Made by a program: the position numbers and the translations under genes. The notes below the pieces were generated by a model that did not search any database, was not told the DNA's origin, and saw only the letters and a list, made by a program, of their open reading frames with translations. DNA of 36,830 nt from a virus: IMG/VR virus record IMGVR_UViG_3300013122_000621, positions 1-36,830 of that record; one strand, written 5' to 3'. This document shows, one piece after another, positions 7,479-15,510 of the stretch; position 1 is the first letter of the stretch, and each line of letters opens with the position of its first letter.

Positions 7479-8285
7479 ATGCAAGGCGTGAACATGCAGA
7501 TCGGCGAAACGCCGAGGCTCGAATGGATCGAGCTTTCCAGCATCTATGTAGATGCGACCTACCAGCGGCCGGTGAAGATGAAGCGGATCCTGCAGATCCT
7601 GCGGGATTTCACCTGGGCACAGTTCGGCGCGCTTATGCTCGTCGAGCAGGAAGATGGGCGCTTCAGCGTCTATGACGGCCAGCATCGTTACGAGGCAGCA
7701 AAGAAACACCCGCTCATCGAGAAGGTGCCGGCGTCGATCGTGAAACTCGACGAGGCATATCTCGAGGCGCAAAGCTTCCTGGGCGTCAACATCAACCGAT
7801 CGGCGATTTCCACCGTCGAAAAATACTGGGCGGGCATCGAGGCCGGCGACGAGAACATGATGCGGATCTGCGCTGTCCTCGATGAGGCCGGTTGCGACGT
7901 CGTTCCTGCCGGCACCAAATCGAAAGCCCCTCACCTGACCGCTTCCGTCAGCGCGATCGAGCGCGCCATCAAGGCTTATGGCGACCAGGCCGTGACGCTG
8001 GCATGCAAGGCGATCGTCGAAGCCTGGCCGAAGGATACCAGCGCATTGAGCGGCACGGTCATCCAGGCAACGGCCCGACTGTTCCGGAACAACAGCAAGA
8101 TCATCAGCTATGACCGCATGGTGCTGAAGCTGAAGGGCAAGAACCGCGCGATCCTTTCGGCCGACGCCGAGGCGATCCGCCGGATTTCCGGATCCGACGC
8201 GGCGCTGTCCGTCGCGAAGGCTCTTGTCGAAATCTACAACAAGGGTCTGCAGACCAACGAGATCAGCATCGGAGCGAAGAAATGA
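7479..8285 (+). CDS. ParB-like N-terminal domain protein
   Basis: A 268-aa protein. The N-terminal 100 residues match the ParB/sulfiredoxin-like fold: WIELSSIYVDATYQRPV, then a VYDGQHRYEAAK motif (D66-G-Q-H-R70), the nucleotide-binding signature of the family. The remaining 160 residues are helical without a recognised domain. Phage proteins of this type are not usually partition proteins; some are nucleases or regulators, and the activity of this one is unknown. It lies among early genes, before the replication genes, and overlaps the next start by ATGA. Confidence 0.8.
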   Translation: MQGVNMQIGETPRLEWIELSSIYVDATYQRPVKMKRILQILRDFTWAQFGALMLVEQEDGRFSVYDGQHRYEAAKKHPLIEKVPASIVKLDEAYLEAQSFLGVNINRSAISTVEKYWAGIEAGDENMMRICAVLDEAGCDVVPAGTKSKAPHLTASVSAIERAIKAYGDQAVTLACKAIVEAWPKDTSALSGTVIQATARLFRNNSKIISYDRMVLKLKGKNRAILSADAEAIRRISGSDAALSVAKALVEIYNKGLQTNEISIGAKK

Positions 8286-9312: not shown

Positions 9313-9558
9313 ATGCAACGGACACCTTACCGGCCAGACCAGAAGGCCGCGCTGACCCGTATCGAGGAGAGGCGCGCCGCACTCGGCATTTCCTTCCAGG
9401 AGCTCGCGCTCGCTGCAGACATTTCGCTGGCGACCTATCGTCGCCTGCGACATAGCGGCCGTGCGTCCGACGCCCAGGTGAAGGCATTGCGGTTTGCGAT
9501 CCGGACGATCGAGCGCCGGCGCAGAGACACGGCCGACATGTTCGGAGCGATGGCATGA
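9313..9558 (+). CDS. Small HTH DNA-binding protein, 81 aa
   Basis: Residues about 25-50 hold a helix-turn-helix (GISFQELALAADISLATYRRLRHSG), and the C-terminus is strongly basic. It starts after a 72-base gap containing a hairpin, so it may head its own transcript, although no convincing promoter was seen; the Shine-Dalgarno is weak (GAG). It is coupled by ATGA to the second HTH gene at 9555. It could act as an early or middle regulator; the target is unknown. Confidence 0.75.
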   Translation: MQRTPYRPDQKAALTRIEERRAALGISFQELALAADISLATYRRLRHSGRASDAQVKALRFAIRTIERRRRDTADMFGAMA

Positions 9559-9821
9559 AGGAGCTTAAGGCCGCCCGCATCGCCCTGAAGGCAATTCGCC
9601 TGGTCCTGTTTCAGGCCACGATCCGCCCTGCCGATCGTCGATCGGTCGAGATCTATCTGCTGGTGACGACCTGCGGCGTCAACCAGGCCATCGCGGCCGA
9701 GGTGTGCGGCTGTACCAAGCAGAACGTGAGCAAACTTTTGAAATCGGTCGAGGACCGGCGCGACCAACGGGATTTTGACCGTGCGCTTTCCCTCCTCGAG
9801 GCCGTGGTGTTGGGAGAGTGA
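9555..9821 (+). CDS. Small HTH protein, possible late regulator
   Basis: An 88-aa protein with a clear HTH at about residues 50-72 (NQAIAAEVCGCTKQNVSKLL), of the kind found in sigma-like and transposase-like DNA-binding regions, preceded by a basic helical segment. The C-terminal part is charged. Paired with the HTH gene just upstream. Because no phage RNA polymerase is visible, this pair is a reasonable place to look for the switch to late genes, but that is inference. Confidence 0.7.
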   Translation: MKELKAARIALKAIRLVLFQATIRPADRRSVEIYLLVTTCGVNQAIAAEVCGCTKQNVSKLLKSVEDRRDQRDFDRALSLLEAVVLGE

Positions 9822-9822
9822 C

Positions 9823-10092
9823 ATGCCGGCAATACACGAACTGAAATGCCTTGCCCCATTCTACGACGCGATAGTGCGCGGCGAGAAAACCTTCGACGTC
9901 CGAAAGGACGATCGGGCGTTCCAGACGGGCGACACCCTCAACCTTCAGCGTGTCGACACCAATTCCGGAAATTTCGTTCACTATCCCGTTCTCATCTGCA
10001 GGATCGTCTATGTTCTGCGCGGTGGGCAGTTCGGGATTGAGCCCGGCTACGTGGTTCTTGGCATCCGGCACGGAGCGACGGAGGCACAATGA
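9823..10092 (+). CDS. DUF3850-like (ASCH/PUA-fold) protein
   Basis: An 89-aa protein opening with HELKCLAPFYDAIVRGEKTFDVRKDDRAF, then GDTLNLQRV: the arrangement (H-E-L-K, G-E-K-T-F-D-V-R-K-x-D-R, then G-D-x-L) is that of the DUF3850 family, which has an ASCH-like fold expected to bind RNA or nucleotides. I use ATG 9823, which has GGGAGAG upstream; longer in-frame starts overlap the HTH gene and have no support. Role in phage unknown. Confidence 0.85.
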   Translation: MPAIHELKCLAPFYDAIVRGEKTFDVRKDDRAFQTGDTLNLQRVDTNSGNFVHYPVLICRIVYVLRGGQFGIEPGYVVLGIRHGATEAQ

Positions 10093-11165
10093 GCCGGTTT
10101 TCCGTCGCCAAGGGCTATGCCGTCGACAATATCGAGACGCTCATCGCGGAGCTTCTCGGCGGCCAACAGAAATTCCGGCGAAAAAGCCTTTGGAATGTTC
10201 GCAATCCATATCGCGCGGGAGCCAAGGAAGACCAGATGGTTGTCTGGCTGACGGGGCCGCGCCGTGGCGCTTGGAAAGATTTTGCCGGAACGGATCAAGG
10301 CGATGCGATCGACCTCGTCGCCTTCGGGCTGAAGGGCGCGGTGACGGCAGAGACGCGTATCGACGCCGTCGAGTGGCTCGAGGACCGGTTTAACATCCGA
10401 CAGATGACGCCCGAGCGGAAGAAGCAATACGACGCGGAACGCCAGATCCGGATATCCGCGGCGGAAGCCGAGGAGAAGAAGCGCCGGGAAAAATCCATCG
10501 CCCGGGCCCGCAAGTTTTTCTTCAGCTGCAGGCCTATCGAGAATAGCCTGGCTGACCGCTATCTCGCCACGCGCGCCGTCCAGTTGGAACAGGTTGTCGA
10601 ACTGGGTCGATCGCTCCGGTTTCATCCGGAATGCGAGTACTGGATGGACGAGGCCCGACCGCGCCATCCTGCGATGATTGCCGCCATGGTCGATGTAACC
10701 GGCCGGATCGGCGCCTGCCACTACACCTTCCTGCAACGTGACGGATCGGGAAAAGCGGGCGTCGAAAAAGCCAAGCTGATGTTCCCCGAAACGACAGGCC
10801 TCGTTGTTCGCCTCACCAACGGCGAGAGCGGGTTGTCTGCGGAGGAAGCGGCCGAGAATGGTGTCATCAGCATTTGCGCCCTCACGGAAGGCATAGAGGA
10901 CGGCCTTTCCGTTGCCCTCACCAATCCCGAATTGCGCGTCTGGGCTGCCGGCAGCCTGCCGGGCCTTCGCAGCGTGCCGGATCACGCTTCCGTCTGCGCA
11001 TGGGTGGTTTTCAAGGACAACGACTGGGGCAAGCCGCAGGCGCAGGAACAGTTCGACCTGGCGATCGCCAGGCTCAGGAGCTTCAGGAAGCCGGTGGAGG
11101 TGATTTCCATGCCGGCCGAGTGGGGAAAAGACGTCAACGACGCGATCAGGAGCGGATGGAAATGA
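10089..11165 (+). CDS. Toprim-domain DNA primase
   Basis: A 358-aa protein. Residues 1-105 match the N-terminal region of phage primases of this kind (GAWKDFAGTDQGDAIDLVAFG), but without a CxxC/H zinc site. Residues about 255-330 form the Toprim domain: E267 in LTEGIEDGLSV and D310-x-D312 in VVFKDNDWG, the residues expected to bind metal. The middle region (about 135-250) has FFFSCRPIENSLADRYLATR and R-F-H-P-E, typical of these proteins. It would make primers for phage replication with the helicase at 12673. Overlaps the neighbours by ATGA. Confidence 0.88.
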   Translation: MSRFSVAKGYAVDNIETLIAELLGGQQKFRRKSLWNVRNPYRAGAKEDQMVVWLTGPRRGAWKDFAGTDQGDAIDLVAFGLKGAVTAETRIDAVEWLEDRFNIRQMTPERKKQYDAERQIRISAAEAEEKKRREKSIARARKFFFSCRPIENSLADRYLATRAVQLEQVVELGRSLRFHPECEYWMDEARPRHPAMIAAMVDVTGRIGACHYTFLQRDGSGKAGVEKAKLMFPETTGLVVRLTNGESGLSAEEAAENGVISICALTEGIEDGLSVALTNPELRVWAAGSLPGLRSVPDHASVCAWVVFKDNDWGKPQAQEQFDLAIARLRSFRKPVEVISMPAEWGKDVNDAIRSGWK

Positions 11166-12672: not shown

Positions 12673-14523
12673 ATGGCTGAGGAAAACAACGACGGCAAGC
12701 GCCCGGTCCGCGGTTTGATCGGTAGCGCGGTCAGCAAGGTCAAGCACCAGCTGAAGACGAAGGACGCCGCCTATCCGGAGCGTGGAAAGCCGCTGGACGG
12801 CGTTATGCCGGGCAAGTGGCTCGAGGATGGCCTGTTCGATGACACCGGGCATTTGCCCTGGAACTGCCCTGTCCGGCCGCTGGGCTATGACGGGGAGCAT
12901 TATTATTTCGTCGACACCATGGGGCAGGTATTCAATACCGGCGATAGCTCCATGGGTGTCGAGCGCCTGCAGAAGCTTTTTGCAGGACATGAGGCATGGC
13001 TCGACTGGGCCTTCCCATCCTATGACGCCAAGGGCCGGGTTTCTGGCTGGAAAGGCGAAATGGTTCGGCGCGCGCTATATGCGGCCTGCAGGGAGCGCGG
13101 CGCCTGGTCATCGGCCGACATGGTACGCGGCCGCGGTGCCTGGCGCGATCGTGACGGCAACCTGGTCCTGCATTGCGGCGATTGCCTGTGGATCAACGGC
13201 GAGATCTCCGACACTGGGGAGCATGGCGATCATCTGTATGTTCGCCGGCCGCGCGCGATGGTGCCCTGGTCCGAGCCGATCACCAACGAAAACAATCCGT
13301 CCGTTAAAATCGTCGAGATCCTGCGCACCTGGAACATGGACCGGAAGGAGGTCGATCCAATCATCGTGCTCGGCGCGATCGGTGTAGCGATGCTTGGTGG
13401 CGCGCTCGACTGGCGGCCCTCGATGATGATCGTCGGCGACGCCGGCGTCGGCAAATCCGAGCTCAACGGTAAAAACGGCGTCCTAAAAACAATTCTCGGC
13501 CGCATGATGGTCAGCACCACCAATGCCACGGAAGCGGGCCTTTATCAGCTGGTGGGACATGATAGCGTGCCGATCGCCATCGACGAGCTCGAGGGCGACG
13601 ACGGTATCGACCAGGCGCAGAAGGTCATCAAGATGGCCCGTGACGCGGCGTCCGGATCCGTGCGTATCCGCGGCGGCCAGAACCACAAGGGAGTAGAGTT
13701 TCAGGCACAATCGACCTTCTTCTTCTCGGGCATTAATCCACCGCCCCTGCCCCCGGCTTCGATGACCAGGCTGGCCATCATCCAGTTGCTGACGCTGGAT
13801 CCGGGAAGCAACAAAGCCCCCGTATTGCCGGAAGCCGATACCGTAGGCCCGCGACTGTTGCGGCGGCTCGCGGATAGCTGGAAGGATTTGCAGTATCGCC
13901 TTGATGACTATGCCAATATTCTTCGGGAGCACGGGCATGACAGCCGCGGCCAGAAGACATTCGGAACGTTCCTTGCAGTCGCTCACACAATGCTCGGCGA
14001 CGAGGGATTGAAGGCCCTCAATCTGCCTTATGACGATCTCTCTCCCTGGGGGGAATGGCTAGCTGCAGATCTCGTGCCGGAGCTCGAGGGCCGTGCGCCA
14101 ACATGGGAGCAAGTCCTCATCGCCATCCAGACATCGGTTATCGAGAATTATTCCGGCGGCGCGCGGCGCACCGTGGCGCAGGAGGTCGAGCGGATCAAGG
14201 CCGGTGAGAGCATCAGTGAAGTTCGTGACCGCCTCTCCCTGATAGATCTCGGCTTGATCGACGATCCTACGCGACCGAAGAACTATTACCTTGCCATCCC
14301 CAACCAGAGCCGCGTGCTGGCAAAAGCGCTGGCGGGCACACCTTTCTCCAATGGACAACAGGGCTCCTGGAGCTTCGCATTCAAGCGAGGCGACCCAAAT
14401 GTCGTCAAATCGAAAATTGAGTTAAAGCCTGGCCTTTTCGATAATCGCGTCACGGTTGCCGGGCGCCAGACGCGCTGCAGCTTCGTCTCCCTCTACGAAT
14501 ATACGAGGTGGTTGGCAAAATGA
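12673..14523 (+). CDS. Phage primase/helicase-type ATPase
   Basis: A 616-aa protein. Residues about 250-375 form the ATPase core: Walker A GDAGVGKS (255-262), Walker B IAIDELEGDD (301-310) and a sensor-type segment with FFFSGINPPPLPPAS. This arrangement is that of helicases of the phage D5/SF3-like group. The N-terminal 230 residues carry WxN and aromatic motifs but no clear primase zinc site; the separate Toprim primase at 10089 would supply priming. TTG 12670 and ATG 12673 both fit; ATG is preferred. It is the last gene before the terminator at 14537. Confidence 0.87.
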   Translation: MAEENNDGKRPVRGLIGSAVSKVKHQLKTKDAAYPERGKPLDGVMPGKWLEDGLFDDTGHLPWNCPVRPLGYDGEHYYFVDTMGQVFNTGDSSMGVERLQKLFAGHEAWLDWAFPSYDAKGRVSGWKGEMVRRALYAACRERGAWSSADMVRGRGAWRDRDGNLVLHCGDCLWINGEISDTGEHGDHLYVRRPRAMVPWSEPITNENNPSVKIVEILRTWNMDRKEVDPIIVLGAIGVAMLGGALDWRPSMMIVGDAGVGKSELNGKNGVLKTILGRMMVSTTNATEAGLYQLVGHDSVPIAIDELEGDDGIDQAQKVIKMARDAASGSVRIRGGQNHKGVEFQAQSTFFFSGINPPPLPPASMTRLAIIQLLTLDPGSNKAPVLPEADTVGPRLLRRLADSWKDLQYRLDDYANILREHGHDSRGQKTFGTFLAVAHTMLGDEGLKALNLPYDDLSPWGEWLAADLVPELEGRAPTWEQVLIAIQTSVIENYSGGARRTVAQEVERIKAGESISEVRDRLSLIDLGLIDDPTRPKNYYLAIPNQSRVLAKALAGTPFSNGQQGSWSFAFKRGDPNVVKSKIELKPGLFDNRVTVAGRQTRCSFVSLYEYTRWLAK

Positions 14524-14677
14524 CCCCTGCAACCATGGGCGGCAGAGGTCCGCCCTTTTGCGTCAATTTTCAGGTGGAAACCCGCACCCCAACCCTTCGG
14601 CATGCTGGAAACGGCGTGGTTGACGGATTTTGCCGTCGTGTAGCGTATCAGTAGGCGTGTGTCGTCGCCGCAATCGC
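14524..14677. other. Intergenic region upstream of the TGTCTA array
   Basis: No convincing gene. Holds the terminator at 14537-14559, a small inverted repeat GACGG/CCGTC at 14622-14637 and TTGACG at 14620-14625, which could be part of a promoter but has no clear -10. Together with 14678-14916 this makes a 393-base non-coding region. Confidence 0.6.
14537..14559 (+). terminator. Terminator of the replication operon
   Basis: GGGCGG (14537-14542) and CCGCCC (14550-14555) with a 7-nt loop, then TTTT. It lies just after the helicase stop and separates early from late genes. Confidence 0.75.
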
Positions 14678-14906
14678 TGTCTAACTGTCTAATGAGTGTC
14701 TAACGATTAAGGCACTGAATTAATTGAGAGAATAAGCCTCATTAGACATTTAGACAGCTAGACAGCAAACCTCTCATAATGTGCGCAAGTGTGCGTATGT
14801 ATACGAGGCATCATGCTGTCTAGTTGTCTAACTGTCTAAATATATATCTAACCATATGTTTTATATGGATAATTTTATTAGACAGTCGTTAGACACTCTG
14901 TAGACA
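14678..14906. repeat. Ordered TGTCTA iteron-like array
   Basis: Twelve exact copies of TGTCTA (or its complement TAGACA), mostly extended to TGTCTAA. Plus orientation: 14678, 14686, 14697. Minus: 14741, 14749, 14757. Plus: 14817, 14825, 14833 (a degenerate copy at 14845). Minus: 14877, 14888, 14899. (Positions are starts of 8-base units.) Spacings are 8 or 11 bp. Arms of each inverted module are separated by exactly 36 bp (14705-14740, 14841-14876). The surroundings are AT-rich in an otherwise GC-rich phage. Candidate origin, packaging site or late operator. Confidence 0.9.
14852..14868. other. Small inverted repeat within the array
   Basis: CCATAT and ATATGG with a 5-nt loop in the 36-bp AT-rich gap of the second module; GATAAT at 14868-14873 could serve as a -10 element for the late operon. 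No good -35 was found, unless a bound protein replaces it. Confidence 0.4.
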
Positions 14907-14916
14907 GCAGGCGGCG

Positions 14917-15510
14917 ATGGGATCGAATAATATATCCGACGATAATGCTCCTGAGGGACAGGATTGGCGTGCCGAGGCGGCCGACGCGCTGGCCTCTCAC
15001 GACCCGAAGAAGGCCGCAAAGCGCGGCCGTGGCCGGCCGAAGGGCGCGCGGAACCGCAAGACGGAGGATTTCGCCGCCTGGTACAGCGCGCAGGGCTACA
15101 AGGATCCGTTGCAGATGCAAGCGGAGTTCATGAGCGCAGATCCCGTGGGCATTCAGGCCTTTTTCTGCGAGCACGAGCGGACCCTGAAGGCGATCGGGAA
15201 GAAAACCGGCATGGCCGTGCCCTCCCTGGGCGAGATTGTCAAAGAGCAGCTGGCCTGCGCCCGTGACATTGCACCCTACCTGCATGGCAAGGCTCCGGTC
15301 CGCCTGGTGGTTGAAGACGAGCGGTTGCCGATCCTCGTCATCAACTCCGGCACGAACCAGCTTGACCAGGCGCGCACGGTCGCGGCGCAAAAGGGCTTGT
15401 CTGTCGGGCGTCCGCTGCTGGATGTCACACCTAATAAAATCAATGACTTAGCGGGTGACGAGGGCGAAAGTCCCACGACTGAAAGTCCCATGAGTGGAAA
15501 GCGCAAATGA
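14917..15510 (+). CDS. Putative terminase small subunit with AT-hook
   Basis: A 197-aa protein directly upstream of the large-terminase region. Residues about 35-50 contain GRGRPKGARNRKT, an AT-hook core (RGRPKG) seen in small terminases and DNA-binding proteins of this group; the centre (residues about 50-130) is helical. The C-terminus is acidic and Ser/Thr-rich. A small terminase recognises the packaging site and recruits the large subunit. The AT-rich TGTCTA array ends 10 bases before the ATG, which would suit an AT-hook. The family match is by context and layout, so moderately sure. Confidence 0.7.
   Translation: MGSNNISDDNAPEGQDWRAEAADALASHDPKKAAKRGRGRPKGARNRKTEDFAAWYSAQGYKDPLQMQAEFMSADPVGIQAFFCEHERTLKAIGKKTGMAVPSLGEIVKEQLACARDIAPYLHGKAPVRLVVEDERLPILVINSGTNQLDQARTVAAQKGLSVGRPLLDVTPNKINDLAGDEGESPTTESPMSGKRK

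Follow-up and report, generated by a model that had tools for sequence, protein, structure and literature searches.

The DNA analyzed here (the window, 36,830 nucleotides) is a 36.8-kb virus record that encodes an integrase, a Toprim primase, a helicase-like protein, and a terminase large subunit, along with T7-type portal, major head, tail, and internal virion proteins and endolysins; the virus is a complete or nearly complete temperate podophage. The helicase-like protein matches a PHROG DNA primase family, and an intergenic region separates the stop codon of its gene from a small-terminase (TerS) candidate (Table 1). Upstream of the primase gene lie two small overlapping HTH genes (9313-9558 and 9555-9821; a Cro-type and a second HTH). 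In many relatives, they are a single fused gene of about 175 aa, and close relatives conserve them strongly. A ParB-like protein (PHROG 1033) is encoded at 7479-8285.

The intergenic region contains 12 exact copies of the hexamer TGTCTA (14678-14906), hereafter called the word, in four groups of three with orientation >>> <<< >>> <<<; the array starts about 157 bp from the end of the helicase gene. Step lengths within the four groups are 8/11, 8/8, 8/8, and 11/11 bp. A first-pass annotation of the window had reported these 12 elements in four alternating triplets, steps of 8 or 11 bp, 52 bp between the two modules, and 10 bp from the last element to the terS ATG, and all of these agree with the positions we obtained. 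It had also given the gap inside each module as 36 bp; our hexamer-based measurement gives 40 bp (14703-14742 and 14839-14878), and a value of 36 bp needs units stretched by 2 bp.

Table 1. Features of the array and its surroundings, with positions in the window
Feature	Position	Strand	Remark
Toprim primase, DUF7146 + Toprim_3	10089..11165	+	
Initiator-helicase candidate, 616 aa, D5/SF3-like	12673..14523	+	
Helicase C-terminal domain, residues 477-616, predicted winged-helix-like, proposed iteron reader	14101..14520	+	
Terminator-like hairpin 3' of helicase gene	14537..14555	+	Consensus scan only
Promoter-like TTGACG-N15-TAGCGT toward terS, between helicase and array	14620..14646	+	
Iteron group 1, three TGTCTA (14678, 14686, 14697)	14678..14702	+	Conserved in relatives
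Inner left spacer, 40 bp	14703..14742	.	Median 58% AT, 44 phages
Iteron group 2, three TAGACA (14743, 14751, 14759)	14743..14764	-	
Central spacer, 52 bp, alternating purine-pyrimidine stretch, CCTC/GAGG at borders	14765..14816	.	
Iteron group 3, three TGTCTA (14817, 14825, 14833)	14817..14838	+	
Inner right spacer, 40 bp, AT-rich, candidate DNA-unwinding segment	14839..14878	.	
Iteron group 4, three TAGACA (14879, 14890, 14901), 10 bp before terS start	14879..14906	-	
TerS candidate adjoining array; by covariation not the reader	14917..15510	+	

Across the whole window, TGTCTA occurs 17 times versus 4.1 expected, and 17 copies were reached in 0 of 100 shuffles. Many copies elsewhere would, according to the first-pass annotation, count against the array; only five lie outside it, all isolated and at chance level. 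The densest hexamer in the window reaches 12 copies in 240 bp; in 30 dinucleotide shuffles, no hexamer exceeded 8.

Within the central spacer of the window, the longest purine-pyrimidine alternation is 17, a value reached in 2 of 100 shuffles; over 44 phages, the median alternation is 21.5, versus 9.4 in shuffles, and the median length of this spacer is 52 bp. A central hairpin or cruciform was considered and rejected: the folding energy is as in shuffles (z near 0), and the alternation alone stands out. The terS-side inner spacer, which in the window is the AT-rich 40-bp segment flanked by inverted groups 3 and 4, has the highest AT content of the three spacers in 33 of the 44 phages (median 67% AT), whereas the center between the two halves is the most AT-rich spacer in 0 of 44. 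A check of GC skew, recommended by the first-pass annotation, gave no clear origin signal, as cumulative skew has a peak near 15-16 kb, where a bidirectional origin would give a minimum.

The TTGACG and TAGCGT hexamers of the promoter-like sequence are nearly invariant in 10 relatives, albeit at an unusual spacing of 15 nt, and the sequence was missed by the consensus scan. It may represent a late promoter, with transcription passing through the putative origin. The terS ATG of the window is not conserved; in one relative (L137, about 12237), terS seems to start at a GTG approximately one codon upstream.

Conserved plan and changing word in related phages

Relatives of the window include prophages of Hyphomicrobiales (Pseudochrobactrum, Rhizobium, Martelella, and Stappia); one relative, L165, resides in Pseudochrobactrum asaccharolyticum DSM 25619. 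The four-group plan before terS is kept in the relatives found through TerS and in six more viral contigs found through the helicase. We used a de novo hexamer scan together with helicase searches of whole genomes; this analysis identified about 60 arrays with more than 10 different words, including TGTCTA, TGTCCC, TGCCTA (in L131), TGTACC, GTTCCA, GTAACC, CTAACC, TCAACC, TGTCTC, GTTGCA, and others. In Martelella L133, the word TGTCCC is present as exactly 3+3+3+3 copies with steps of 11,11 / 8,8 / 8,8 / 11,11.

Ten close relatives show no variation in 69 of the 72 iteron columns, versus 41 of the 157 spacer columns. The four-group plan, steps of 8-12 bp, and a center of ~52 bp are conserved in relatives; group sizes and the orientation of the outer groups vary among arrays, and the inner "<< center >>" plan is constant. 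The first-pass annotation had named relatives with random spacing or no repeats as the case that would speak against the array, and the opposite was found. Its equal inner gaps do not hold as a fixed geometry, since the inner start-to-start distances are 46/46 in the window, 48/47 in L137, 56/47 in L128, and 57/47 in L144.

In some relatives, cargo genes occupy up to 6.5 kb between the helicase gene and the array (L169/L163, 8520-8763; L202, L247, and L248). The array stays beside terS despite this insertion, and L163 and L164 carry unlike cargo after the same helicase end. A GTCCCC array (L193/L213, 7087-7377) lies near a helicase distantly related to that of the window (E about 1e-26, first profile); no primase or terminase of the window family was detected at that locus.

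Covariation of the word with the helicase and predicted helicase structure

We used Mantel tests to compare word similarity with protein distances in 44 phages; in these tests, in which permutation leaves some shared ancestry, helicase distance gave the best fit (r = -0.71; partial given TerL, -0.50; 0/499 permutations), and the C-terminal part of the helicase added to the whole helicase (-0.23; 0/499 permutations). TerS distance, tested in the same 44 phages, was not significant (partial given TerL, -0.03). In a subset of 19 phages, the helicase gene lies >600 bp from the array (0.6-6.5 kb) and terS is adjacent; here, the helicase C-terminal part retained r = -0.71 (partial, -0.54), and the TerS partial was +0.15. 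Because the helicase still tracks the word at 0.6-6.5 kb from an array that adjoins terS, physical linkage does not explain the tie between helicase and word. Counts of word changes on protein trees differ little (helicase 12, primase 12, TerL 13, TerS 14, and C-terminal HTH 14), and they are a weak result in line with the covariation.

AlphaFold2 modeled the helicase with a middling mean pLDDT of 69.8, the C-terminal part being better. Foldseek aligned this model to PDB structures, with SCCmec Cch as the top match, followed by SaPIBov1 Rep, poxvirus E5/D5, and PriRep1; the matches are weak (best E 0.0087, prob 0.96; Cch and SaPIBov1 Rep both at E about 0.01). Modeled alone, the C-terminal domain reached a pLDDT of 82.8 and was predicted to consist of three helices and a two-stranded wing; against PDB, this model gave no significant fold match, the best being a pCW3 relaxosome accessory protein (E 0.4). 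A sequence search of PDB chains matched no helicase of the D5/SF3 (SaPI Rep/Cch) kind, and DUF5906 was identified as a weak match in one member of the helicase family.

Arrays beside D5-type helicases in other phages

We scanned viral contigs, blind to their proteins, for closely spaced triplets of TGTCTA, ATCTGT, or GGTTAC, defining a dense two-strand array as at least 7 copies in 300 bp and searching for helicases within a radius of 2.5 kb. Among the matches listed, a D5-type helicase was found near 21 of 36 dense TGTCTA arrays (the helicase-finding profiles were built from seven array neighbors, so for this set the helicase type was not chosen independently), and near 18 of 21 ATCTGT and 17 of 39 GGTTAC arrays (both sets independent of profile construction). 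The corresponding fractions for isolated triplets, again among the matches listed, were 1/56, 1/68, and 0/24 (Fisher, dense vs isolated: 3e-10, 8e-15, and 7e-5). ATCTGT was meant as a negative control and marked arrays of the same kind; isolated triplets were therefore used as the control.

Among the matches listed, the array is positioned 3' of the D5-type helicase gene in 54 of 56 cases, at a median distance of 40 bp, and only 8 of the 56 helicases belong to the window's own family. Pfam domains of the neighbors checked among these matches include D5_N, Pox_D5, VapE-like, DUF5906, DUF927, Prim-Pol, and Cch HTH_56, the last carried by the array neighbor in L106. No D5-type helicase was detected within 2.5 kb of 15 of the 36 dense TGTCTA arrays among the matches listed, which may reflect short contigs or other initiators. 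These include L009, L019, L036/L077, L050, L052, and L093, where the initiator may lie off the fetched stretch. A separate type of ATCTGT array (L296, L310, L322, L328, L329, L352, and L359) lies 3' of a D5-type helicase; about four copies face outward on either side of a stretch of about 190 bp.

A putative replication origin, its alternatives, and known systems

Based on these sequence comparisons, the array is very probably a replication origin, the iterons of which are recognized by the D5-type initiator helicase encoded next to it. The first-pass annotation had listed origin iterons next to a helicase among its readings, and the covariation of word and helicase, the predicted fold, and the position 3' of D5-type helicases all support this reading. 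In the mechanism we propose, the self-loading D5/SF3-type helicase would bind the hexamer iterons, with its C-terminal winged-helix-like domain as the most likely reader, and would assemble on two mirror-image half-sites; two hexamers would match the 12 iterons. The helicase would then open an AT-rich segment flanked by inverted groups (probably 14839-14878) and unwind the DNA, after which the phage Toprim primase (10089) would prime.

An alternative that we regard as unlikely is that the twin-HTH protein (9313-9821) reads the array, as an origin or regulatory site, and recruits the helicase, much as RSF1010 RepC, RepA, and RepB' share the work. In its favor, most relatives keep the twin-HTH gene close to the primase, the word shows some covariation with the C-terminal HTH (partial given TerL, -0.21), and in a close trio (L145/L146/L147) the twin-HTH proteins have 60-62% identity, versus 84% for other proteins, where the word differs. 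However, this covariation is smaller than that of many helicase stretches of equal length and almost disappears in phages with a long distance between helicase and array (-0.11), and the C-terminal HTH tree has 14 word changes versus 12. Arrays of other phages accompany the helicase, and among the matches listed the twin-HTH C-terminal domain is found there only in the window's family. With a signal weaker than that of the helicase, the twin-HTH protein was disfavored as the reader. Residues of the recognition helix in its C-terminal HTH gave no residual signal with the word given TerL and a slight one given the helicase; a likeness of this HTH to DnaA domain IV, suspected by eye, was also set aside, as Pfam gave generic HTH matches only.

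The first-pass annotation had also offered a packaging site read by an AT-hook terminase protein. A pac or cosB-like site bound by the TerS product (14917) would fit with the array abutting terS in nearly all relatives, even those with cargo genes between array and helicase, and lambda cosB is located just upstream of the lambda small-terminase gene. We nevertheless consider such a site highly improbable: TerS does not covary with the word and was disfavored as the reader, a difference in word within the close trio is not accompanied by additional TerS divergence, and unrelated phages also carry arrays 3' of D5-type helicases. That association and the tie between word and helicase would likewise be left unexplained by a late-gene operator or activator acting on the TTGACG-N15-TAGCGT sequence upstream of the array, with the modules looped. 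Although the terminator-like hairpin and near-invariant promoter-like sequence between helicase and array are in line with it, and transcription toward terS would cross the array, this reading appears quite improbable; as a side role coexisting with an origin, it is a minor possibility. For repeats that are functionless, arising by chance or mutational accumulation, we found no supporting point, and the comparative data already refute this idea, leaving it a negligible probability: iterons are conserved over spacers, many phages have changed words, and shuffles reached the observed count in 0 of 100 cases.

If the array is an origin read by the helicase, then origin, likely initiator, and a readable recognition word would lie side by side for a whole phage group, and with so many naturally varied words on a single geometry, comparison could yield the code by which the C-terminal domains of D5-type helicases recognize DNA. 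It would also provide a simple DNA signature for locating the origins of phages with D5-type helicases. We tentatively suggest, as a possibility somewhat short of even, a phage-wide class of origin with ~12 iterons in a mirror-symmetric inverted plan, 3' of a D5-type helicase gene and serving as a pad for two hexamers; the geometry would stay constant, and the word would change in step with the C-terminal domain of the helicase. PICIs/SaPIs would be one user of this class, perhaps having derived it from such phages. If true, PICIs/SaPIs are not the sole owners of this replicon.

The first-pass annotation stated that no described site has this layout, which is too strong, as SaPI/PICI origins are a close precedent (PMC6092414, PMC7581432). 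SaPI Rep helicases recognize, through their C-terminal domain, iterons that directly follow the rep gene, apparently as two hexamers (PMC7581432). In 2018, the authors describing the PICI origin organization stated that it is shared by no other known bacterial replicon (PMC6092414); our results call the published confinement of this layout to PICIs into question and bear on the source of satellite replicons. A fixed layout with a phage-specific six-letter word has previously been described mainly for satellites (PICIs/SaPIs), not full-size phages, and a literature search, outside which most subscription papers fell, found no account of such arrays in complete phages.

Like the putative replicon of the window, SaPI/PICI Rep-ori loci (SaPIbov1, SaPI5, and EcCICFT073) have a primase, an initiator helicase, and an iteron origin directly 3'. 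Their origins contain short iteron sets around an AT-rich stretch, with an iteron sequence that varies by element; the primase is separate or fused, and the gene order is pri-rep-ori-(terS) (PMC6092414, PMC7581432). A putative origin directly 3' of the initiator-helicase gene, a feature of the SaPI/PICI type, is present in the window, and cargo genes intervene in some relatives. The predicted helicase fold of the window also resembles SaPIBov1 Rep and PriRep1, with weak E-values. SaPI/PICI elements are satellites, whereas the putative window replicon is part of a temperate podophage of full size that encodes its own portal, capsid, tail, and terminase; because the structural gene set is full (portal, major head and tail proteins, internal virion proteins, terminase, and endolysins), the window is not a PICI. 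The window array also differs from SaPI/PICI origins in its four groups, two mirror halves, and alternating purine-pyrimidine center, and its AT-rich segment is inside one half rather than at the center.

A lambdoid O-type origin (iterons inside the initiator gene, with a loader and host helicase) was rejected as a model, as the window array is intergenic and 3' of a helicase-like gene; the Bartonella run-off replication origin, a potential parallel from Hyphomicrobiales, is described as lambda-like and was set aside. In phage P4 alpha, primase and helicase are fused, whereas the window encodes them in separate ORFs. RSF1010 RepA/RepB'/RepC resembles the window in having iterons and a separate primase and helicase; however, a third protein reads the RSF1010 iterons (PMC4234260), whereas the word in the window follows the helicase. 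SCCmec Cch/Cch2, a close parallel to what is proposed here for the window, is a D5-family helicase with a C-terminal domain that binds short repeats just downstream of its gene (PMC7581432); the Cch2 site has three 5-nt iterons, whereas the window has 12 iterons of 6 nt arranged in ordered inverted groups.
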